Shown here: positions 3,134 through 63,109 of the stretch, piece after piece
Position numbering within the stretch: position 1 is the stretch's first letter
Layout: every line of letters begins with the position of its first letter
Source: Chionoecetes opilio
Lineage: Eukaryota > Arthropoda > Malacostraca > Decapoda > Majidae
DNA: 64,000 nt
Assembly (NCBI GenBank): GCA_016584305.1
Contig: JACEEZ010024063.1
Location: 112,501-176,500 of the forward strand
Reading direction: 5' to 3'
The notes under the pieces: model-generated
Database searches by the model: none
What the model saw: only the letters and a program-made list of their open reading frames with translations
What the model was told of the DNA's origin: nothing
Position numbers and translations under genes: made by a program

Positions 3134-3765
3134 TAGATTTAAAAAGCAAATAGGGAAAAAACTGGTTCACAAATAGGATGGTAAATGATTGGAATGGTCT
3201 CAGTCGTCAGGTAGTTATAGTCTATTTTTTTTATGGTCAAAATGCACTAAGGAAGCCACGCCCCCTGCCTCCCCTTCTATTCTACGGGGCAGCTGATTGG
3301 TGCATTCCTCTTATCATCACTACAAATCACAATATCTTCACCAAAGTACCGTATATGGTACTCTGATCTTCACTACTTAACAGCGGCGTGACCATTGGAC
3401 AAAACAATCTTCACTACAGAGGGATTTTTGATATTGTCACCCTCTGTAGTGAAGATTGCTTTGTCCAGTGGTCCCGCCGGTGTTAAGTAGTGAAGATATT
3501 GTGATTGGTAGTGATGATACGAGGAATGCACCAATCAGCTGCCTCGTAGAATAGAAGGGGAGGCAGGGAGTGTGGCTTCCTTAGTGCATTTTGACCATAA
3601 TAAAAACAATAGACTATAGTGCGGAGTCAATAGGGAGTTTTAAAATGAGGCTAAACAATTTCATGGATGAGGATGAAAGGTAGATGTAGGAAGTAAGTAT
3701 TAAGTAACAGGAACTACTATGTGTAGGTCTCACGGCCTCTTGTAGCTTCCGTATTTTTTTATGTT
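3134..3765 (+). mobile_element. 3' tail of a LINE, split by a foldback insertion
   Basis: Two parts (3134-3215 and 3620-3765) match the LINE tail that is uninterrupted at 21,871-22,176. That tail encodes a C-terminal reverse-transcriptase-like segment with the motif NRVVNDWNGLSRQVV and ends in a TCTTATGTTC-rich 3' end. The foldback element at 3216-3619 separates the halves. Confidence 0.7.
3216..3619. mobile_element. Foldback element inserted in a LINE tail
   Basis: Long, nearly perfect inverted arms (from TATAGTCTATT to AATAGACTATA), each ~170 bp, include the block GATTGGTGCATTCCTC on one arm and its complement on the other. The inner ends are ACTACAGAGGG / CCCTCTGTAGT. A partial copy lies at 61,690-61,860. 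Confidence 0.85.
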
Positions 3766-3878
3766 CTTCCTACGACTCCCAGGCTTTGCCACTCAGCTGG
3801 TTCATCCTCCAACTCTTGTCTCCCAGAAATCAGAATTCATACACACACTCAAAGTGCTCGCCAGTAAGATCAGTATTT

Positions 3879-3981
<103 letters not shown>

Positions 3982-4159
3982 ACCATTTCTTCTTTCAGTG
4001 CTTCTACTCTATTTTTCTCTTTTTTACCACCTCCTCTCAACCCCCACTTGTAAAGGCCCCCATCCACGGTACGATTGGTCGTACGATCTGATCCGACAGA
4101 CCTGATCCGATGGATATCCTACCACCCACTAATGATCCGACCGCACCTCAGGATCAATT

Positions 4160-5037
4160 AGAGAGAACTGAAACTCGAGAAATGCCAGTGGTCGCTGGCA
4201 GTTTTAACTCAAAGGTTGGTCTACTGTGTTTTGGCTCCGCGACTAATATTTTTCATAAATTAATTTCGCGATAAACATTGATGCACCGCATCTGAATACC
4301 AAAAAATATAGTTCTTCTGTTGTTCTACTAATTATATGGATGACATTCATTACGATGGAACGTTCTATAATAGCAATTTAATGCAAATTACTCGCCTCGA
4401 GTAGCAAAGCTTAATATATTTTTTACATGTATATTGTGGCATGTAAAATTTGGGTGATGTTCACACTGTTTTCTAAGACAGTACTGCTGCGTCTGGCAAA
4501 CGCTTGTCAAAATACAATAAGCAATGCCTTGGAAAAACGAAGAATAAAGAATGCCGAAATCGGCTTGTTGCTGCGACAATGTAGGTTATAATTGTGGAGG
4601 TGACACGCCGCGGCGGGGAGTGGTGGGCGGAGAGATTGTGGCGGGGAGATTGAATCAAAACATTGCCACTTCACGCGTCGACTCATTGCACTTCCAGGCT
4701 TTCTATCTGATTGATACACAATAATAACAGGAAAATATGACTGCCTAGGTATAGATAACTTCTAAACATACGTTATTGACTATATAATATCATAGAGTAA
4801 CATTTACCTCGCCTCCTCAACTATAACCTACTTGGTTATTTGGTTAAATGCATGTTTTACAGACTCAGGCTTCTATACAATATACATATAGAAGAAAATC
4901 GTTCTTAAAATTATACTTTTGTGTTTTAAGTGCAGTGGAATAAGCCCATATTTTTCTTTCAAGTTGACCAACTTTTCACCAAATTGTGAGTTAAAACTGC
5001 CAGCGACCACTGGCATTTCGGAGTTGCAGTTCTCTCT
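4160..5037. mobile_element. 878-bp TIR element, tandem copy 1 of 3
   Basis: Terminal inverted repeats of about 50 bp (AGAGAGAACTGCAACTC... and ...GAGTTGCAGTTCTCTCT, then CCAGTGGTCGCTGGCAG inward). Flanked by AATT on both sides. Small minus-strand frames recur at the same place in each copy, but none resembles a known protein and they differ in coding content no more than in non-coding parts. Probably non-autonomous. Confidence 0.85.
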
Positions 5038-5041
5038 AATT

Positions 5042-5919
5042 AGAGAGAACTGCAACTCGAGAAATGCCAGTGGTCGCTGGCAGTTTTAACTCAAAGGTTG
5101 GTCTACTGTGTTTTGGCTCCGCGACTAATATTTTTCATAAATTAATTTCGCGATAAACATTGATGCACCGCATCTGAATACCAAAAAATATAGTTCTTCT
5201 GTTGTTCTACTAATTATATGGATGACATGCATTACGATGGAATGTTCTATAATAGCAATTTAATGCAAATTACTCGCCTCGTGTAGCAAAGCTTAATATA
5301 TTTTTTACATGTATATTGTGGCATGTAAAATTTGGGTGATGTTCACACTGTTTTCTAAGACAGTACTGCTGCGTCTGGCAAACGCTTGTCAAAATACAAT
5401 AAGCAATGCCTTGGAAAAACGAAGAATAAAGAATGCCGAAATCGGCTTGTTGCTGCGACAATGTAGGTTATAATTGTGGAGGCGACACGCCGCGGCGGGG
5501 AGTGGTGGGCGGGGAGATTGTGGCGGGGCTATTGAATCAAAACATTGCCACTTCACGCGTCGACTCATTGCACTTCCAGGCTTTCTATCTGATTGATACA
5601 CAATAATAACAGGAAAATATGACTGCCTAGGTATAGATAACTTCTAAACATACGTTATTGACTATATAATATCATAGAGTAACATTTACCTCGCCTCCTC
5701 AACTATAACCTACTTGGTTATTTGGTTAAATACATGTTTTACAGACTCAGGCTTCTATACAATATACATATAGAAGAAAATCGTTCTTAAAATTATACTT
5801 TTGTGTTTTAAGTGCAGTGGAATAAGCCCATATTTTTCTTTCAAGTTGACCAACTTTTCACCAAATTGTGAGTTAAAACTGCCAGCGACCACTGGCATTT
5901 CGGAGTTGCAGTTCTCTCT
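5042..5919. mobile_element. 878-bp TIR element, tandem copy 2 of 3
   Basis: Same length and orientation as copy 1, with only scattered substitutions (for example near 5229 and 5283). AATT at 5038-5041 and 5920-5923 separates it from its neighbours, giving a junction CTCTCTAATTAGAGAG. Confidence 0.88.
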
Positions 5920-8699: not shown

Positions 8700-11600
8700 C
8701 TAGGGGAAAAAAGACAAACATATTAATTTACTGTTGTTGATCCAATACACATATACACAGATAAACATTATTATCATAGAAGAATATGATCAAATATCTA
8801 CTTCAATCACCATCACATCTGCTGCATTACATAGGGAAGTGTCAGACATGTCTGAGAGAAGTAGCTTAACAAACGGTTAAAGAAAAAAAAATCAGTTACC
8901 CGTTCTCATAAGTTACGAGGCGTATCAAAAGTAATTCCATATACTATTATGTACTACCGTCAATAACACTAGTCGCCACTGCACTAATGTCACCAGGCAA
9001 ATTTTACGAATGTTAGCATCACTACAGACTTGTATAAGCCACTGAACACAGGTACATAATGTAAGCTACTGTGCATGCCTCTTTAGTGGCACATACAAGT
9101 CTGTAGTGATGCTAAAATTCGTAATACGTATTCATATATGGCACCTGGCGACATAAAAGTCTGGCAAGAGGTCTGTCTGTCTGTGTCTCATGGTTATCTC
9201 GCTCTTTCTCTCTTTTAATCTTTGCCTTCTTACATTATATAGACACCACCTTCCTTACTACCTCAGATTACTGCACAGGGTACTTATAATTATCCTATAT
9301 ATGCACAGGGTACTTATAATTATCCTATATATGCACAGGGTACTTATAATTATCCTATATATGCACAGGGTACTTATAACTGTCCTATATATGCACAGGG
9401 TACTTATAACTGTCCTACATATGCACAGGGTACTTATAACTGTCCTATATATGCACAGGGTACTTATAATTGTCCTACATATGCACAGGGTACTTATAAT
9501 TGTCCTACATATGCACAGGGTACTTATAATTGTCCTACATATGCACAGGGTACTTATAACTGTCCTACATATGCACAGGGTACTTATAACTGTCCTATAT
9601 ATGCACAGGGTACTTATAACTGTCCTACATATGCACAGGGTACTTATAACTGTCCTATATATGCACAGGGTACTTATAATTGTCCTACATATGCACAGGG
9701 TACTTATAATTGTCCTATATATGCACAGGGTACTTATAATTGTCCTACATATGCACAGGGTACTTATAACTGTCCTATATATGCACAGGGTACTTATAAT
9801 TGTCCTATATATGCACAGGGTACTTATAATTGTCCTACATATGCACAGGGTACTTATAATTGTCCTACATATGCACAGGGTACTTATAATTGTCCTATAT
9901 ATGCACAGGGTACTTATAATTGTCCTATATATTTGTCCTATATATGCACAGGCTACTTATAATTGTCCTATATATTTGTCTTATATATGCACAGGCTACT
10001 TATAATTGTCCTATATATTTGTCCTATATATGCACAGGGTACTTATAATTGTCCTATATATGCACAGGCTACTTATAATAGTCCTATTTCATACAGAACA
10101 CATGCAGTACAACCCACCTCGCTGTGTTCAGGCTCGTGTTCATGCATGGAGAGTTCCACCCCCTCCGGCAGCCCCGCCTGTATCACCTCCAGGAACACCG
10201 GCGCCGTGATGGAAGGCAGATCTGCCAACTAGGTAAACACAGGTCAGTTGATTTCTCACTCACACACACACTTTTAACTCCTTCATGCCCCGATATTTCC
10301 TTTGCACTAAAAAATGTCTGTAGTTAGCCATAAGATTAAGAAAAGTAACTTAATATATCAAATAAGTAAGTCGATAAGGGTACTAAACAGGTCATATCTA
10401 TAACATATTGCTTATATTCACTAAAAAAACGTCTAATGGTATACCCAAAGTACAATGGAAATTACATTCTGGGTCTCAAGGGGTTAAGGAATTTAAAGGG
10501 GACAAGTAGGGAACCATTGGGCATTGAAGAGGCTGAGGCAAGGGATAGAAATAGTTCAAAGCGTATCATCGATCGTCTAACCTCATAAGACATTGTGGGA
10601 AAATGTGACGTTAAACAGAAAGACGATGACAATTGGGAAGCCAATTTTGACGGGGGATTTTGTAAGGAGGATATAAGTAAGTGATTTCGTAAGGAATGTA
10701 AGGAGGTAAATAAGAATGTTCTGCCAATGGTAATGAACACTCATGGGGAACAAGGTGCTGAATCAAAGAAATTAATCAATAATGTGATGAGCCGATGGAT
10801 GGAACGAGAGACGAGATTTTATTTGAGGGAAGACTCTCCCGCAAGACTGGATCAGCTGTTCACCAAGACAAGGGACGTGGTATAACCTGTACTGGAGGTT
10901 TATGTCCTCATGTACCATTGTAGATATAGTTAGAAGCGTATCATGGACCGTCTATTCATTCATTCACTAGAGGGGATAGACAGTCGGGGGAAAGAAGAAC
11001 TAGGAAGAAGTTCAAGAAAAGGAAAAAATTCAAATAGTTGACCGTCTAACCTCATAAGATTTCATGGGAAAATCTGACGTTAAACAGAAATATGATGATG
11101 ATGTACCATTGAAAGTGGCATAAATTGAGTTAACATCATTTCCTTCTAGTAACACATGAGGAACCTACATAATTTCCTTCTAGTAACACATGAGGAACCT
11201 ACATAATGTTCTTCTAGTAACACATGAGGAACCTACATAATGTTCTTCTAGTAACACATGAGGAACCTACATCATTTCCTTCTAGTAACACATGAGGAAC
11301 CTACATCATTTCCTTCTAGTAACACATGAGGAACCTACATAATGTTCTTCTAGTAACACATGAGGAACCTACATCATTTCCTTCTAGTAACACATGAGGA
11401 ACCTACATCATTTCCTTCTAGTAACACATGAGGAACCTACATAATGTTCTTCTAGTAACACATGAGGAACCTACATCATTTCCTTCTAGTAACACATGAG
11501 GAACCTACATAATGTTCTTCTAGTAACACATGAGGAACCTACATAATGTTCTTCTAGTAACACATGAGGAACCTACATCATTTCCTTCTAGTAACACATG

Positions 11601-19663: not shown

Positions 19664-42657
<22,994 letters not shown>

Positions 42658-52021: not shown

Positions 52022-55000
52022 CTGAAGAAAAAAAGGGTAAAAATCAAACTTACCTCAACCTTACAACTTAATAACTTACTTTAACCAACTTAAAAATACT
52101 TTATAAATACATAAAAGTACGTATCAAACTTAATTCTGCAAAAGAGTGAGCACTGAAAGGTAACAGTAAAAAAGATGGTGAAAATCAAACTTATCAAATA
52201 CTTTCTAAATATATAAAAGTACATTTCAAACTTAATGCACTAAAAGCGTGAGCGCTGATAGGAATGGAGAGCTGTGTGGAGGTGAACATTGTCCGTCAGC
52301 AGTGATATTTTTCCTGGTGCCTATTTTTCCACTCTACAGCCTCAACTCATCTCCTTCTACACGCATCATTGTTCGGAATAAAAGTAGACTGTCAGAACAA
52401 GACCATCAGGACTACAGTCAGACCAGCTTAAACTGGCGGTCTGGGTCTGAGCTCAGGAATGCGCTATTGCCACATATTGAAAATAATTGAGCTTAACTTT
52501 TGTGATATTTGTGAAAGACATCACAATAGAGATATACACGTACGTATTGGTACACTTTTAACATAAATATTATACAGCAGGAGGCCTCAGACCACTCAAG
52601 CCGGACCGCCAGTTTAAGCCGGTCCGACTATAGTATTATTCTGAAAGAGGACCAAATGGGAAGCAGAAAGAAATGGCAAAGACAGTTCGAGAGCACTAAC
52701 ACACTAACACCTGATTTAAACAAATGAAAAGGCAGATTAACTTACAATATTATCAGGAACAAAGACAGCTGGACTAATAGCTGAGGTCTGTAAGCCATGA
52801 GGAACAAAGTACTGTGAGGAGGCAGGATCGTCCCTCGCCCAGCTGTTACTCGTGCTGCTCGAACTGCCACTTTGTTTATCCCTTGTGTGTCCGCCTGCCC
52901 TCAGCACCTCGTTGAGCCGCGTGTCATATTCCAGCATCTTGCGGCTCAGCTGGAATGCATGATGGATTCAGTCGTCAAGTAGTTAATGCAGTGTCAATAG
53001 GGAGTTTTAAAAGGAGGCTGGATAAATTCATGGATGGGGATGAAAGGTGGATGTAGGCAGTGTTAGGTATCAGGATATAAGATAAGATACTTTGATCCTA
53101 TCTAGACACTTTGCAAGTACCAACTACAAGGTTATTGACTATACAAAGCGCCACCACGCCAGGACGAACTTGGTGGACTCGAACCGCTGACCGAATGCGC
53201 AGGGACGCTGCACACACGAGCTCACGACTCTACCAACCATGCCACCCTGACAGGTTAGGTATCAGGAACTACCACGTGTAGGTCTCACGGTATCTTGCAG
53301 CTTCCTTATTTACTTATGGTCTTATGTTCTTATATGATTGAGTTATCAAAGCATGTAATTAAAAGTATATATCAAGAAAAGACTCGATAAATATTTTTGG
53401 GGGAAATTTATCAGAACATGAAATTAAAAGTATAAATCAAGAAAAGACTATCGATAAATATTTTTTTTAAGTAGCAACTATCTAAAACCTTGACTCTGAT
53501 TGTCAAAAAAATATTGGATCATACAGGAGCAGAATTTGGCTTTGTTTTTTTTACATTTGTGCCTATAGCGCGTGTAGGCAGTGATCTCCAGGGGTGGGAT
53601 GGTAGGCCCTGGAGGTTCACTTGAGGGCTCTGATGGTTGGCCCTCACCCGTGGTGGCGCAAGCAGGATATTTATAGTGACGCCTGTGATTAGAGGCTCAT
53701 GCCGCCCCCTGTGTCCTCCGATGCACTCGTAATCGAAGGTAGAATTATTGGGCAGCATGTGGGTGTTCTTAGGCCACTCGACGCTGCAGAAAAATTTTAA
53801 GTGGATTTTGGTTCACATCGGGGATCTACCTCTGGTTACCGAGAACCCCACTCGGAGACGCTAACCACTCTGCTACCGCCTCCCCAAGATGCATAGCATC
53901 TGAGCTTCCAAAACTGAACATTGTTCTGAACCTAAATGTTCTTAAATTGGGGAAAAGCCTGAACTTTAGATAAGAGAAATTCCCAATAAGCTAGTAACAC
54001 AGGACCTCCCTCTTCAGGATCCAAATTGTTGATAAGATATTTTTGCATTACTTTCTAAAAATTGTTCCTCTCTTTAATTATTTTTGTACAACTCACATAT
54101 GACGCTGGTGACTGTTACTGGTCTGTGTATTAATGGTTATTTTAATTCACTCACCTCAGAAAGTTTTCCTTCCTGGCTTGTCAACTTTGTGGCCTGCTCA
54201 GATATGATGCGATTCTGTTCTAGAGTCACTTTTTCTTGCTCATTCAGTTTTCGTCGTACTTCATTAATCTGTAAAATAGAACAAATATTACTTCTTATAG
54301 GCGATCAGCCTGGGGGGTTGGTCGGTATCAAATTAGGGCGAGAATGCTAATAGTGTTTTTTGGGAAGGTATAAATGCCTAGAGTTAGAAAACATGTGATA
54401 GCATTGTGGCAGTGGCAGCTTTATGGGAGTTATCCCCCTTTTCCAAACTGTATATTATATAATTATATAAATATACATACATATAATTAAAAAAAAAAAT
54501 CTTTTTCAGGTGTCGTATTTCATCGGCGAGAGACGGACCGGACGATCGACTGGCGACGTTGGAGACCCTCGAGGAGACCACCACTGCCGGAAGACCAGCC
54601 GGCCCGCAGGTCGTGCGTTCAGAGAAAGTCGGGTTTTTGGAGTGGAGAGGTAGAGTAGCAGCCGACTACCTCTCGAAGCTATTGTTGAAGGCTGGTGATG
54701 TAGAGAAGAATCCGGGACCAGAATCCGGTGTCGTGGTAGCTGTGGAACTTCAACGTAGGAGGCCTGGAATGTCCGTTAACATGGAAACGCCACAGGCACC
54801 CGCCAAGAAACTGTGCATCATACACCAGGCAGTATCCGACGGAGATGAACATTTTGTCAGTCCTCAAAGCCATGCCTCCTGGTTAACCTTACTTGAAGCC
54901 GCCAAAGTCAGGAACCATGTCCCCATTCTAGACGTTTCAAAAACGCTTCAGGACAAAGAAGTTCCAATTATATTCTATCATCGAAAATGTAGAAGCATGT

Positions 55001-58000
55001 TCACCATGAAAAGGAGACTTGGAAACTCTGAAAAGTAAAGCAGGTGAATGTAGTAGTGATCTATCTGGTAGTAGTGACTGTCCTCCAAAAAAGTCTTCCA
55101 GAACATCAACACATGAATCAAGAGTTTATGCTCCGATCTGCGTATTCTGTAGCAAGGTCAAGTTCAAAAAGCACTCCAATACACGTGAAACACTTACGCT
55201 AGCTTCACAACTGAGAGTAGATCAAACACTAAGAGAGAGTGCCGTCAGAAATGCAGACGGCAGGATGATAGCACTAACCAGTAGAGACATTGTTGCCACA
55301 GAGGCACACTACCACGCTTCATGCTATAGGAATTACACTAGGAACAAAGAGGACAGCAATGAGAATGAAGAAGAGAAAGTAACAGATGAATTTATACTGT
55401 ATCACAAGGTTGAAGGAGAAGCTTACCAAGAACTTTTCGAATACATCAGAGAAGATATTATCCCCAACAAGAGGATTATACCAGTCACCTCCTTGACCAC
55501 AAAATTGGAATCATTAATGTTGTCTGGTGGAGTTAATCTTCTGAAGGATTCAATAAAGAAGAATATGCACAGAAGACTGAAATCCGAGCTTGGAGGTGCA
55601 GTAGAAATATTTTCCGACGACAAGGGAAAGTTGTTGATGGTTCCATGCTGTGTCTCATTAAAGGATGTTGTCTTGGAAAATCAAAATCTACATAGGGAGC
55701 TCAAGCTTTGGAAGGCAAAGTCTACAGATATCAACAAGATCATAGATCAGACTTCGTCACATATCCGAACGGCCATCAAGAAGGACATGATTTTCACCCC
55801 GTGGCCATATCATCCGTCTGATGTAGCTACTCATATCGCCATACCAAATGAGTTACAGCGATTTCTGGTCGGGCTCCTCACTGGAGATACAACTAGTACT
55901 ACGAATAAATCCCAAAGGACTGCTATTCTTGTCGAGTCATTTAGCCAGGACATGATATACGCTGTTACACGTGGGCAGTATAAACCACCAAAACATTTCC
56001 TGCTTCCTTATGCGGTAAAAGCACTCACTGGAAACACTGAGGTCATTCGGATACTGAATAAGTTTGGACATGGGGTGTCTTATGACCAGCTGGAAGAGAA
56101 TGATACCGCTCTGTGTCTGCAGAAGTTGGCAATGGGCTTCAACCAGAGAGCTGTTCTACCACTCTCCATCAAGCCCCATGTCTTCACAAATCTTGCATGG
56201 GATAATATAGACAGACTGGAGGAGACACTTGATAGGCCCATAAAACGAAATTTAAAAATTTCATAATTATTGGGTGTATTTTGGCGGCCATTTTGGAAAA
56301 AGGGAGATAACTCATATAAAGCTGCCACCCCCACAATGCTATCACATGTTTTCTAACTCTAGGCATTTATACCTTCTCAAAAAACACTCTTAGCATTCTC
56401 GCCCTAATTTGATACCGGTGAGCAAAATTTCGGACCGGGGCTGACCGACTATTAGGACTATTTCATGCCCTATAACTATCATACACACATATTTAGGGCA
56501 ATATTTAGGTCAGATTATATTTAATGACAACTACTATACAAAATGTTTCTTCAGTACATTAACTCCTGAACATAATAGTACAGAAGGCAATTCCTTCATT
56601 CAGTACTAACTGCATTACTCACAACAGTAACCTCTATTTCTCTGAACACCTTTGAACTTTGCTTCAAAAACTAAATTTGAAGAAAGATCCCGTATTGTAT
56701 CCCATAAATGGTATACAAGAGTTTTGATTTACAAGAGTTCAATGCTACAAGAACTACCTCATGTAGGTCTCACGATCTCTTGCAGCTTGCTTTTTTTTTT
56801 CTCTTATGTTCTTATGTATTATCATAATTATATAATATTATTAATATGTAATATAATTATATTATATAACATCATTTTCAATGATGGTATCAATCAATCA
56901 TTGGGGGCATACGCCAGGGGGCGCGTCGCCTCGCCCACCCTACGACGCCACTCCCGGGGGTCACCACGCGCGAGTTCCCATGCAGGCTCCTTTCCCATAC
57001 CAAGCAGCTCTCGACAAGAAACATCAACTTGCCCCAGCCACGAGCCTTGTGGGCTCCCCCTTGGCCTCCTCCACGCCGGATTGTCTCTTACAGATACAAC
57101 CCGATGGGAAGGATCGGTTTCAGGGTACCGTGCCACATGCCCATATAGCCGAAGTTGGCGCTGATGGACTATGCAGGTAATAGGCCTCGATTCAGTCTCA
57201 CGGTGCAATCGCTGATTTGACACGTAATCATCCCAGCGATACCCCATGATTCTGCGAAGACACTTATTACCAAAGGCATTGATTCGTCTCTTCAAGTCAC
57301 TATTTAGTGTCCATGTCTCACAACCATAGAGTAAGACAGGGATCACAAGCGATTTGAAGATCCGGATCTTTGTCCTCCTGCACAGGTACCGACAACGCCA
57401 AATACTCCCGCTGAGCGAGTCCATAACACCGTGGGCTATGCCAATCCGCCGTAAGACTTCTTGACGTGACCCGCCGTCATTATGGACTGCGCTACCAAGG
57501 TATGTAAAACTTTCCAAGATCTCAATGTCCTCGCCACACGCATGAACAGACTGTACTGCTTCATCTCGTAAGTCTCCAAACACCTGGACCTTGGTCTTGA
57601 GCCAGGAGACCTCAAGTCCCAAAGGCTTTGCCTCCTCGTGCAGCGCCTCGAGAGCCATCACCAGGACCTCCAGCGACTCAGCAAAGATTACTGCATCATC
57701 GGCAAAAACAAGATCAGTGATCTTGGTGTTGCCAACGGATGCTCCACAATCACTTTGATCTACAACCTTGTCCAATACCCAGTCCATACAAGCGTTGAAA
57801 AGTGATGGGGCAAGCACGCACCCTTGCCTCACTCCTGTATTCACAGGAAAGAAGCCGGATACACCTGCCCTACCAATGATGGTATGCCTCCTGTATTATC
57901 TAAGAATATCCAAAAACATATTTACTGCCAGACGTTAACACATTGATAACCACCCCTAACAGCTGCTTGTCAGGATTGTCATTGATCAAATTTTGCTGCA

Positions 58001-61000
58001 GAAAGGCCTTTTGAGGTTAATCTTTTCACCTAAGGTAACTATTTGCTCAAGACTAGAATTTCTCACAAAAAAAACTGAATAAGGAAGAATGTTCTGTTGC
58101 CTATTATCAAAAGGGATGAAAGAATCAAGAAAAATACAGGAACTACCACGTGTAGGTCTCGAGGCCTCTTGTAGCTTTCTTATTTTCTTATGTTCTAAAA
58201 TGGTTTAACTCTTGCTTGAATAATGTGAATTGAATAACAACAAAAAATAATTGATCTTGTGCGATGGTGGTGAGTGTGTAGGGGAGGGAGGCTGGCAATC
58301 AGAAGTAAGCATAAATATACCAGAACTAAATTGCCCCCCCCCCCCCTTTTTATATTCTCTTACTGTCTTCTTTATAGGGACGGGCAATTAAGCGGGTTCT
58401 TTGTTACTTTTTTTTTTTTTTACCCTTGGCCAGTCCTTTGTGATGTAAAAAATATAATATATATAAAGAGTAAATGCTAGCATGACAGAACACTGCAGCA
58501 GACTGAGACACAGAGACATAGAGTTGAGGACCAGCATTTACAACACAAGACATTTGGTTGTGACCCAGAACACAAGGTCGATATAAGAAAATAAGGAAGC
58601 TACAAAAGGCTGTGAGACCTACACGTGGTAGTTCCTGTTACTTAACACTACCTACATCCACCTTTCATCCCCATCCATGAAATTGTCTAGCCTCCTTTTA
58701 AAGCTCCCTATTAACTCAGCACTAACTACCTGATGACCGAGTCCATTCCAATCATTTACCATCCTATTTGTGAACCAGTTTCTCCCTATTTTTTTTTTAA
58801 TTTACGTTTTTCCAGATCGATATGACAACAGACATGACCCGCTGGTGAAGTGACAAACAATTTACCTTTGATTTCATGTCATTAACTTCTTTCTTCAAAG
58901 CACCAGTAAAACTTCTGTAGTATATGTTAGAAGAAGCTAAATCAGAGAAGTCTTCAGACGATGCTTGTAATGAGTGAGCCTTGTTAAGGGCAAGGCTGGA
59001 TGAGGTGGTCGCGGCTAATGCTGGAAAAAGAAAACAAATATTCATATATCAAGATATCTGACTGAAGGTTGAAATTGCCAACAGCTGAAAATATAAAGAG
59101 TGAAGATTTATTCACTGTACATAAACTCATAATAGCCTGAAAGACTAGTTTTCCTCAGAGAAGTATAGAAGCCTGCTGGAATGGACTAAAGCAAGAGGTG
59201 ATAACAACAAAAAGTGTGCATCAATTTAAGGGAGAAAAAAAAAAAAAGCACGCGCGAGTGCTTAAATGCGCGGTGCTTTGTGTGTGTGTGTGTGCACCTT
59301 TACCATAAATGGCGGCGTACAAGTCGACTCTTTGAGCATGAAAAAATTTCTCCAAAACTAGGGGTCGACTTATACGGCAAGGATAAAATAGGAACCTTTA
59401 CCACTGAGTGGCAAACACGTGGATGAGCACTACTAACAATCGCTGTACACCACTTACCGTAGCTCCAGCAGGTTACCACAAATATTTCCAACTAAGACTT
59501 GTGTTCGGTGAACTTACTTAACATATTCAACACACAGATTCATATATAAATAATAAAATAATAATATAAATTCATTTTATATCAACACAAAACCATAGGC
59601 TGTTTCCAACAGCTGATACACAGATTGTAAACAACTGACTGGAACGCCACTGAACCGAAGCGGCCAGTCAGACAACTACAACAACAACAACTGCCTGGCT
59701 GCTCGCCGAGCGCCAGCGCTGTCCGCCCAACTCATCGTACCTCACACTCTAACAATACAACCGGTAATTCTGATCTACAAATATATCGTGACCATACACT
59801 ACGGGGGTAAAGTCTTTGTAAGCTTTGGCCTACCAGTAGCCTACCGTATTTTTGGGGCCGACTTATACGGCAAGTATAGGCCTAACCCGTAATCTTGAGT
59901 TAATAATAATGAGGTGGACTTGTACGCTGCCACTTACGGTATAAACATGATTTGATGAAGGAGCAGGTTGGTAGTATACTTACCGGAATGTGATACAAAG
60001 GATGATGAGACAGAGAAGCGAGGACTAGTGGTGGTGTGAGCCGCACTTTTTAGGGAACCAATAATTTTCTCCTCAAAGTGCTCCATGGCCATGCTGGAAA
60101 TGTCCCGCAGCTCTGTGAGGATTTCATGGGAGCGAGGCAATGTTCTTGTTTTGTGGCACTGAATGAACCGCAGCACTCTATATATCTCATCAATCACCTG
60201 AAAAGTGACCAAGTATCATAAATTATTGTAAATAACTATGCAAATTATAAAGTTAATGGGGCACCAAACAGCCTGGGTACCAACCCTAGTTAAAGGGGTA
60301 CCAAACACCTGGTGTGATGATGGTGCAGGCTATACAAATAATATCAAATAGGCTACTTGATTTGAATGTCCAATATTCAGACTATGTATCCATAAGAGAC
60401 CTTCTCACCTCTTGATGCAAGCACTAACCTTGCCTGGGATGAAGCAGCACATGTTACTGTCCACATACTTCATGAAGGTCATGTTGAGGAGGGAGACGCG
60501 TGTCTCTATGGCAGTGAGGATGTCACAGTGGCGGAACAGAGGGTGGTTCCTGCGCTCAGACTCCCGCCGCGGCAGCTGACTCTTCACCTGAGGGAAGGGA
60601 AGGATTGCGTTTAACCCCTTCACGCCCAGAACGTTATTTCCATTGTAATTTGGGTAGGCCATTAGACGATTTTAATCATTATAAGCAATGATTTATAGAT
60701 ATCACATGTTTAGTATCCTTGTTCACTAGCTAATTTCGTATATTACATAAGTTACTTTTCAATTTTTTTGGCTAATAACGGACAATTTTATACAGTAAAG
60801 GAAAGATCTGGGCGTGAAGGGGTTAAAGGGAAGGACAGCCACACAACACTTTTATGTGGCAGCTGACCAGCCTGACCACTCACCAGAATGTTAATGTAAG
60901 CCTGACACCTGAACACCTACACAGTAAAATCTGAATGCCATGGACTGTTATGATGGATGTGAGCCATGACAAGTACATGCTTCAGTCTGAGTGTGGCACC

Positions 61001-62078: not shown

Positions 62079-63032
62079 TTACCAGGTTAACTTACCTTCC
62101 TCGGAATAGGGGTGAAGAAACAGTTGACCAGCATTCTTAAGGAAGTGGTGAATTCTTTCAGTCTTGGAGTATGCCCTTGAAAACAGGTACCTTGCCAAGT
62201 ACTTCGGGTATACTGACACCTTATTTCCAGAGCGAAACACCCACGACTTGGCATCACGACAACACAGATCAACGTTTTGGGTGTGAACGCCGTCCTCGCT
62301 CACACCCGCACTGTGGTTCACGGCGGCCCGGTGTGTGCGGTGTGTGTAGCCCAAACTCAATGCCTCGAGCCGGGAGTAAGCTCGCCGCTCGGTCGAATAG
62401 ATTGTCGTGCCGGGGAGAATGTGGCGCTTTATGATGGGCGTGAGGGCTTGAATGTCTCTTTTGCCCACCGGGAAGAGCAACAGTTTCTTGGAGCCTCTCT
62501 CATAAGCCCCAAACAGCCATTTCCCCTCCACGTCACGCCCTCGCCCGTACTTAGCGTTTCCCAACCTCTGTTCGCCTATTTCCACAACGGCGTCAGGACC
62601 GCCCACCGTGCACTGATTCCAGAACCAGTACTCGAACACCTCGTAGCAGTAGCCGGCCCACTTCACACACGTCTCGCTGGAAAACCCGAGCCAATCCTGA
62701 GCCTCTCGCTGCGTTTTTGACTTGCTTAAAAACAAGGCAATGAACGCCAGCAAGGCATTGGGCCGAATGTGAGACTGGTTCAGGAAGGTGCCTTTCTTCT
62801 GAGTCACGGAGAACTTACACGTGATGCTGCGTCTCCGCTTGTCCTTCCATCTCTTGGAACAATAAAACGTCTTGTGGGATTTCTTTAACTTACAGTCCCC
62901 TCCACAGGTCGGGCACTTGATCTTTGTTGGGAGCACGCCATGTCTTTTCAAGTACTCGAAGCTCACTTCCTCCTCTATGGTGAACTCCTTTATAAACTCC
63001 AGAAACGAATAACTGCAACCTTCACAAGCCAT
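62079..63032 (-). CDS. Merlin/ISXO2-like transposase protein with altered catalytic residues
   Basis: A 317-codon ATG-started frame. Residues 40-72 form a Cys-rich N-terminal motif (CPTCGGDCKLKK...FYCSKR), followed by a KGTFLNQSHIRPNALLAFIA helical region and an ISXO2-like DDE domain (about 148-285; VVEIGEQRLGNAKYGRGRDV, ALTPIIKRHILPGTTIYS, AVNHSAGVSEDGVHTQ). In the family, catalytic acids sit at VEIDE, YSD and HTQxIE; here they are Gly153, Thr214 and Asp255, so strand transfer is unlikely. Four extra residues (HRTHRAAVNHS) interrupt a conserved block. No inverted repeats were recognised. A splice donor (GAAG|GTAAGT, 62,095) lies just before the stop. Either a domesticated gene or a decaying copy that still happens to be open. 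Confidence 0.8.
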   Translation of the reverse strand: MACEGCSYSFLEFIKEFTIEEEVSFEYLKRHGVLPTKIKCPTCGGDCKLKKSHKTFYCSKRWKDKRRRSITCKFSVTQKKGTFLNQSHIRPNALLAFIALFLSKSKTQREAQDWLGFSSETCVKWAGYCYEVFEYWFWNQCTVGGPDAVVEIGEQRLGNAKYGRGRDVEGKWLFGAYERGSKKLLLFPVGKRDIQALTPIIKRHILPGTTIYSTERRAYSRLEALSLGYTHRTHRAAVNHSAGVSEDGVHTQNVDLCCRDAKSWVFRSGNKVSVYPKYLARYLFSRAYSKTERIHHFLKNAGQLFLHPYSEEGKLTW

Positions 63033-63109
63033 AGCGTGTTGTTGTGGTTGTTTAAGGCAGCGAGGATCCCTTGGGGAACACTATGAGCCCTGGTGATGTC
63101 CTATCACAG

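Follow-up and report, generated by a model that had tools for sequence, protein, structure and literature searches.

A splice-acceptor-like site and a 2A motif ahead of the transposase frame of a high-copy crab DNA transposon: a possible natural gene trap

The stretch of Chionoecetes opilio DNA considered here (64,000 nucleotides, contig JACEEZ010024063.1, positions 112,501 to 176,500 of the forward strand; hereafter the window, whose own numbering is used) carries at 54298-56451, on the plus strand, a 2154-bp copy, shortened by an internal deletion, of a high-copy DNA transposon. In this family a splice-acceptor-like site and a 2A ribosome-skipping motif lie, in that order, ahead of the transposase and in frame with it, and no AUG precedes the 2A. 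We propose that the family may obtain its transposase by splicing the leader exon onto host exons, the 2A then releasing the transposase from the fusion; as a reading of the sequence, we regard this as an even bet. The fuller version, in which the element is a natural splice-acceptor-2A (SA-2A) gene-trap transposon that borrows host promoters and start codons as in the engineered SA-T2A driver design, seems to us only slightly less than an even bet.

The initial annotation had pointed to inverted arms of about 125 bp bounding the coding region, and these turned out to be the arms of the element itself. Its ends, TAGGCGATCAGCC...GGCTGACCGACTA, are common to copies with unrelated flanks. The left arm (54298-54450) and the right arm (56289-56451, minus strand) pair over a 125-nt stretch with 93% complementarity (54323-54447 with 56293-56417, within a core of 54323-54450 and 56289-56417), giving the element the terminal inverted repeats of a cut-and-paste DNA transposon. 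The window copy is flanked by a duplicated TTA (54295-54297 and 56452-56454). Identical 3-bp flanks surround 31 of the 35 copies with both ends in view, the flanks of the other four being different, as against a mean of 3.2 and a maximum of 11 matches when left and right flanks are paired at random; this excess marks the family as truly mobile DNA that duplicates 3 bp of its target on insertion. A TA duplication, which we had guessed from the flanks, was dropped since the counts favour 3 bp, the TA belonging to the element's end. The exact 2A DNA lies within 33 of the same 35 copies. Full-length copies, which the annotation had proposed to seek along with target duplications, measure about 5.68 kb: two of them (L031 and L033; 5,680 and 5,682 bp) share the 5' layout of the window copy, and a third (L034, at the locus of L020) is of near full length.

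The family comprises more than 100 copies in the crab genome. Searches of the 1.94-Gb genome gave 3,758 candidates with the protein as query and 440 with the leader, of which 100 and 40, respectively, were scored. The left-end string was present in 61 of the 66 loci L001-L066, and removal of repeated places and of short or N-containing stretches left the 49 distinct left ends used in the counts below. Nine loci compared by blastn over most of the element match the window copy at 98.9-99.7% identity in their long alignments; most loci found with the protein query show 97-100% identity in the first 600 bases (93.5% for L008, 94.0% for L019). Given such identities, the family has all the appearance of a young burst. 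We dropped the idea of a 2A module swapped onto divergent bodies, to which protein identities of 70-88% beside 100% identical leaders had given rise: the DNA is about 99% alike in the nine loci, which include L050, L053, L061 and L018, and the low protein identities are due to frame shifts. Deleted copies of 1,889-1,891 bp occupy different places (L023, L024, L025, L026, L028, L029, L043, L050 and L062), and these deletion derivatives have probably spread as non-autonomous elements.

The 2A motif, LLLKAGDVEKNPGP (54679-54720), ends in GDVEKNPGP, its last eight residues, DVEKNPGP, conforming to the C-terminal consensus D[V/I]ExNPGP. This consensus occurs 259 times in the 1.94-Gb genome, compared with 5 for a reversed control, and among the 100 matches listed 97 carry the 2A DNA of this family, identical or almost so. 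The 23-base 2A DNA itself, with up to two mismatches allowed, is found at 275 genome places, its reversed pattern at none. The 2A reported in the initial annotation is complete, and it is kept in most copies examined: in 42 of the 49 left ends the frame from the acceptor-like site to NPGP is intact, and all 42 reach the motif without meeting an ATG. The frame is broken in the other seven (L008, L009, L011, L019, L020, L021 and L030). Among 48 translated leaders, 37 are identical over the first 85 residues.

The same annotation had the coding region begin at the 2A, and here the sequence tells a different story. The frame is open from 54487, directly past the TAA at 54484-54486, and the acceptor-like site lies 56 codons ahead of the LLLK that opens the motif; the coding region moreover consists of two frames (54487-55038 and 55010-56266), split near 55.0 kb by a frame shift from which certain other copies are free, such as L002 with its 666 codons readable from the acceptor. 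NPGP stands at 54709, and not one of the 74 codons between the TAA and NPGP is an ATG. The leader that is open without an in-frame ATG runs from the acceptor-like site through the 2A (54510-54768), up to the first in-frame ATGs beyond the motif, at 54769 and 54781 (54769-54783); its other two reading frames hold stops. Unspliced read-in is excluded in the window copy, because the TAA shares the frame of the 2A and precedes the end of the acceptor (54509). With a stop just upstream and no AUG within the leader, reading of the 2A would require either a non-AUG start or splicing, in the one suitable phase, to a coding exon further upstream. The N-terminal peptide of about 60 residues that had been proposed as the released product has, short of splicing, no in-frame AUG before the 2A to start from; a more likely product is that of a host exon extended by the 69 leader residues from the Cys codon at 54511 through NPG.

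The candidate acceptor, TTTTTCAG (54502-54509), ends 212 bp from the element start. It is a CAG/G (slash, junction) at 54509 preceded by TTTTT, and CAG/GTGTCGTATTTCATCG is found in 49 of 49 left ends. Its strength was judged by a rough position-weight score made for this analysis, according to which the acceptor of full-length L031 reaches 15.3, while the runner-up among 451 AGs on the same strand scores 3.7 and the highest of the 314 on the opposite strand 6.9. A T-run lies upstream of the acceptor in nine of the left ends, with scores of 11.7-15.3; a candidate 3' splice site before the transposase frame is present as a sequence in all left ends (49/49) and strong, by this score, in 9 of the 49. 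In the T-run copies (L002, L004, L008, L009, L011, L017, L019, L025 and L028) the run replaces an A-run found at 54489-54501 of the window, the sequences being otherwise closely similar, and it looks as if this short stretch had been flipped, switching the predicted strength of the acceptor.

In the crab element, the parts of SA-T2A cassettes sit where piggyBac has its 3' splice site. The element inserts with a 3-bp duplication. Once in a host intron in the sense orientation, the acceptor just inside its left arm would capture the upstream host exon; one of the three splice phases reads to the 2A, and the other two meet stops. From the motif, one would then expect the ribosome to skip a single bond at GDVEKNPG/P, so that the host product ends and a proline-first transposase starts. 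The freed protein would carry the zinc modules, a DDE core, whose fold prediction is weak, and an XPG-type nuclease, both as predicted folds. We infer that the acceptor is spliced in vivo, that skipping takes place and that the freed protein is the active form. One could also envision a second, 2A-independent start at the AUGs past the motif, served by a promoter of the element, with which a TATAAAT in the arm would be consistent.

Several observations weigh against this mechanism, and the main objection comes from the acceptor itself. In 40 of the 49 left ends, including those of the window copy and of full-length L033 (as L012), an A-run precedes TCTTTTTCAG where a polypyrimidine tract would be expected. 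These ends score from -2.6 to 2.8, the window copy scoring -2.6, and the window site ranks 1125th among 4108 plus-strand AGs by the rough score. The sample of 49 leans to the A-run type, as the leader query contained part of the A-run; among left ends in loci found with the protein query the proportions are 17/26 for the A-run and 9/26 for the T-run. Because a short TTTTCAG is frequently enough for invertebrate introns, we do not regard the A-run acceptor as dead. The strong-acceptor type is not the cleaner of the two, however: 5 of 9 T-run left ends keep an unbroken frame to the 2A, against 37 of 40 with the A-run (broken in 4/9 and 3/40, respectively), and the near full-length L034 has a broken leader. 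In addition, an open frame of 69 codons arises in 5.4% of dinucleotide shuffles of the same composition, the youth of a family whose nine compared loci are 98.9-99.7% identical means that retention of the 2A is not yet a sign of selection, and a TTG at 54559 with A at -3 and G at +4 leaves room for a non-AUG start.

To these points must be added what is known of the C. opilio gene models. Three of them (P0121, P0122 and P0136) differ in their upstream parts yet continue from the same place, the Cys codon that follows the acceptor; this fits a gene finder using the acceptor site and shows no more than that. In P0122 the upstream part is itself a high-copy repeat (150 of 3,012 candidates scored); P0136, which has lost the 2A, starts with what looks like part of a reverse transcriptase. 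For these reasons the models are no proof of host-gene capture. The repeat upstream in P0122 is very abundant in its own right, with some 3,012 first-look candidates, many of them with a 363-amino-acid open frame.

Other ways of reading the leader have to be weighed against host splicing. Translation might initiate at a non-AUG codon within it, yielding a short 2A-ended peptide that serves as a regulatory or targeting N-terminus, with no need for host exons. Near-cognate codons do occur in frame, the TTG at 54559 having the best context of those listed, and an N-terminal 2A doubles as a signal sequence in sea urchin NLR proteins (PMC4981915). On the other hand, C occupies position -3 of the CTG at 54550 and +4 of the GTG at 54613, a transcript start within the element is only putative, and this explanation leaves the acceptor string of 49 out of 49 left ends unaccounted for; we consider it unlikely. 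Equally unlikely, in our judgement, is that the leader is an untranslated relic, the transposase starting from the AUG at 54769 or 54781 and the 2A being a fossil, perhaps from a retrotransposon. Several relatives start at a Met near 54781, whose context is AACATGG, and the same genome contains open reading frames (ORFs) resembling those of long interspersed nuclear elements (LINEs) with DIESNPGP (L067 and L069). A relic of this kind is hard to square with a complete 2A and a frame kept open in 42 of 49 left ends while the other two are stopped, although the youth of the family weakens the point.

It is also conceivable that the element supplies a first exon of its own, located in the left arm (ATGs at 54344, 54374 and 54423), transcribed from an arm promoter and spliced to the leader, so that the 2A would free the transposase from an element-encoded N-terminal peptide. 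The arm has a TATAAAT at 54369-54375 and an ATG frame, MPRVRKHVIALW..., and between 54290 and 54680 a count of ATG-donor-acceptor joins (from 4 ATGs, 24 donors and 33 acceptors, with introns no shorter than 35 nt) gave 72 that keep the 2A frame. However, only 3 of the 72 use the acceptor at 54509, and their donors (for example GCA/GTGGCA) look poor by eye, while the best-looking donor, AAG/GTATAA, leads to a stop before the 2A and overlaps the TATAAAT. We find this improbable and place it after the previous two. Finally, 2A motifs of animal genomes are mostly reported from non-LTR (long terminal repeat) retrotransposons (PMC4981915), but a chance overlap of one such retrotransposon with the arms of an unrelated repeat is refuted by the joint travel of arms, leader, 2A and transposase (exact 2A DNA in 33/35 copies, duplication in 31/35) and by the membership of the protein in a large non-retrotransposon family.

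Comparison with homologues bears on the origin of the 2A. Only 2 of 251 homologues, P0121 and P0122, contain NPGP, which is absent from the first 120. In the other relatives with a preserved N-terminus the first residue is a Met close to the counterpart of 54781, past the position of the 2A, which suggests that the 2A leader is an addition; the proteins do not reveal the sequence upstream of that Met. A distant relative at L036 (BLASTP E 1e-6 to P0138) has an acceptor-like TTTTTTCTTTTTCAG/GC of its own, and its leader, with an in-frame TGA before the ATG, is not open. From this one example, the 2A may have arisen later than the acceptor near the left end, the innovation then lying in the open 2A leader. 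The 2A element has itself inserted in the 5' leader of the L036 relative, with an ATA duplication (L036:879-3277 and 3296-5298). Of the three non-family 2A sequences among the 100 matches listed, those at L067 and L069 lie in ORFs that read like LINE ORFs, as ...LLLLA(A/G)DIESNPGP followed by a Cys-rich segment, and the one at L068 lies in no clear ORF. It is possible that the 2A was captured from such a LINE.

The protein downstream of the 2A is not a retrotransposon ORF, and the 2A lies in the transposase frame, so that the central claim of the annotation, a 2A carried by an inverted-repeat DNA element, stands. Its two Cys/His modules are also borne out. The first (54814-54990, CIIH...YHRKC in the window) is kept as CxIH...YHRKC in the consensus of 21 sequences; in the second (55139-55324, CVFC...HYHASC, generally CxxC...HYHxxC), residues C44, C47, H102 and C105 of the second frame are nearly invariant. 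That frame (55010-56263) represents the rest of a truncated transposase, the window protein having 198 relatives at E<=0.01; C. opilio gene models are 94-99% identical to it over 37-41% of its length. In full-length proteins the modules are followed by a predicted winged helix (55388-55654 in the window, limits by eye from residues ~203-296 of P0140), a possible DDE core, the fold prediction for which is weak, and a predicted FEN1/EXO1/XPG-type nuclease. A DNID motif at 56201-56212, nearly invariant in alignments A1 and A2, may hold the first acidic residue of the DDE core. Pfam gave no domain match for the window frames and, for the full-length frames (that of L031 and the C-terminal one of L033), only PF20231 (DUF6589), below cut-off; none of these frames showed a reverse transcriptase. 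No relatives of the protein turned up in viral, prokaryotic and plasmid collections, no convincing match in the PDB by sequence, and nothing at E<=0.001 in BFVD or in the PDB by Foldseek with P0140 as query. TATAAA-like strings past the stop codons of L031 and L033 are candidate poly(A) signals only.

Academ transposons are characterized by an XPG-type nuclease and a 3-4 bp target duplication. Because of its 3-bp duplication, its length of about 5.7 kb and its predicted XPG-type nuclease, the crab element probably belongs to this superfamily, an assignment made by traits. Curated Academ elements of bivalves have a mean length of 5,565 bp (PMC10294476). The crab element resembles Academ in size, in its 3-bp duplication and in the combination of a possible DDE core with a predicted XPG/FEN1-type nuclease, and differs from it by the 2A leader, the splice-acceptor-like site and the lack of an AUG ahead of the 2A. 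The initial annotation had suspected that both the element class and its use of 2A were undescribed: the class is probably a known one, whereas the use of 2A looks new. In the open-access papers searched, among which the surveys of Odon 2013 and Rao 2025 are not included, none came to light that describes a 2A in a DNA transposon, and its use in one is likely to be new.

Retrotransposons are not known to have terminal inverted repeats. Among them, non-LTR elements of the apurinic/apyrimidinic endonuclease (APE) type are said to carry 2A sequences, reportedly described by Odon et al. in 2013. The crab element shares with these an N-terminal 2A in a mobile-element ORF, two ORFs of this appearance being present in the same genome (L067 and L069), and differs in the protein that follows. 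The piggyBac transposon is described as a natural exon trap: its transposase frame is immediately preceded by a 3' splice site, and an N-terminal fusion results (PMC2268245). The likeness to piggyBac and PGBD3 lies in the 3' splice-site-like sequence before the transposase frame and in expression from a host gene, which for the crab element is a proposal; the transposases differ, and where piggyBac yields a fusion protein the crab 2A would separate the host product. Engineered SA-T2A-effector cassettes such as SA-T2A-GAL4 avoid fusion by ribosome skipping (PMC5629313). They have the same order of acceptor, 2A and effector protein as the crab element, but are man-made, contain a poly(A) signal and come in frame-matched versions, whereas the crab element is natural and has one frame. 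The sea urchin NLR proteins likewise have a 2A at the N-terminus of a longer protein; theirs is a start-codon-bearing N-terminus, able to act as a signal peptide, on immune receptors, and the crab protein belongs to a transposon (PMC4981915). The same source states that skipping activity also depends on the context upstream of the 2A (PMC4981915).

If release of the transposase from host fusions is indeed what the 2A does, an SA-2A gene trap evolved before engineers built one. The element would need neither a promoter nor a start codon of its own and would tolerate any phase-matched host exon, because the 2A removes the fused host peptide. It would then be understandable that a large transposase relies on exon trapping and yet carries no fusion partner, and the reported natural range of 2A, so far RNA viruses, non-LTR retrotransposons and a few immune receptors, would be widened. 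The spread of a DNA transposon would also be tied to 2A recoding in a way open to testing, and a compact natural splice-acceptor-2A module would become available.

The window copy itself is a relic that preserves an informative 5' end. Its internal deletion falls after ...NIDRLEETL; the later conserved parts of the transposase, with the later conserved acidic positions of the possible DDE core, and the nuclease are gone. It lies antisense to, and about 30 bp outside, exon 54155-54268 of a minus-strand gene. Being frame-shifted, devoid of most of the catalytic region and antisense to the neighbouring host exon, this copy is not expected to work as a trap. The exon at 54155-54268 and two others on the minus strand, at ~59937-60215 and 60408-60671, read like FBXO28. 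The plus strand from ~19.6 kb is presumably occupied by a LETM1-like gene.

Traces of other mobile elements and a tandem array are present in the window. A 333-amino-acid open frame at 62082-63080 (minus strand) has an IS1595/ISXO2-like transposase domain (E 2.2e-11), and we assume it to be Merlin-like. Fragments at 39274-42048 (plus) and 56897-57895 (minus) read like one type of non-LTR reverse transcriptase. A tandem array at 9157-10002 is open in several frames, which repeat MHRVLIIVLY or GTYNCPIYAQ.

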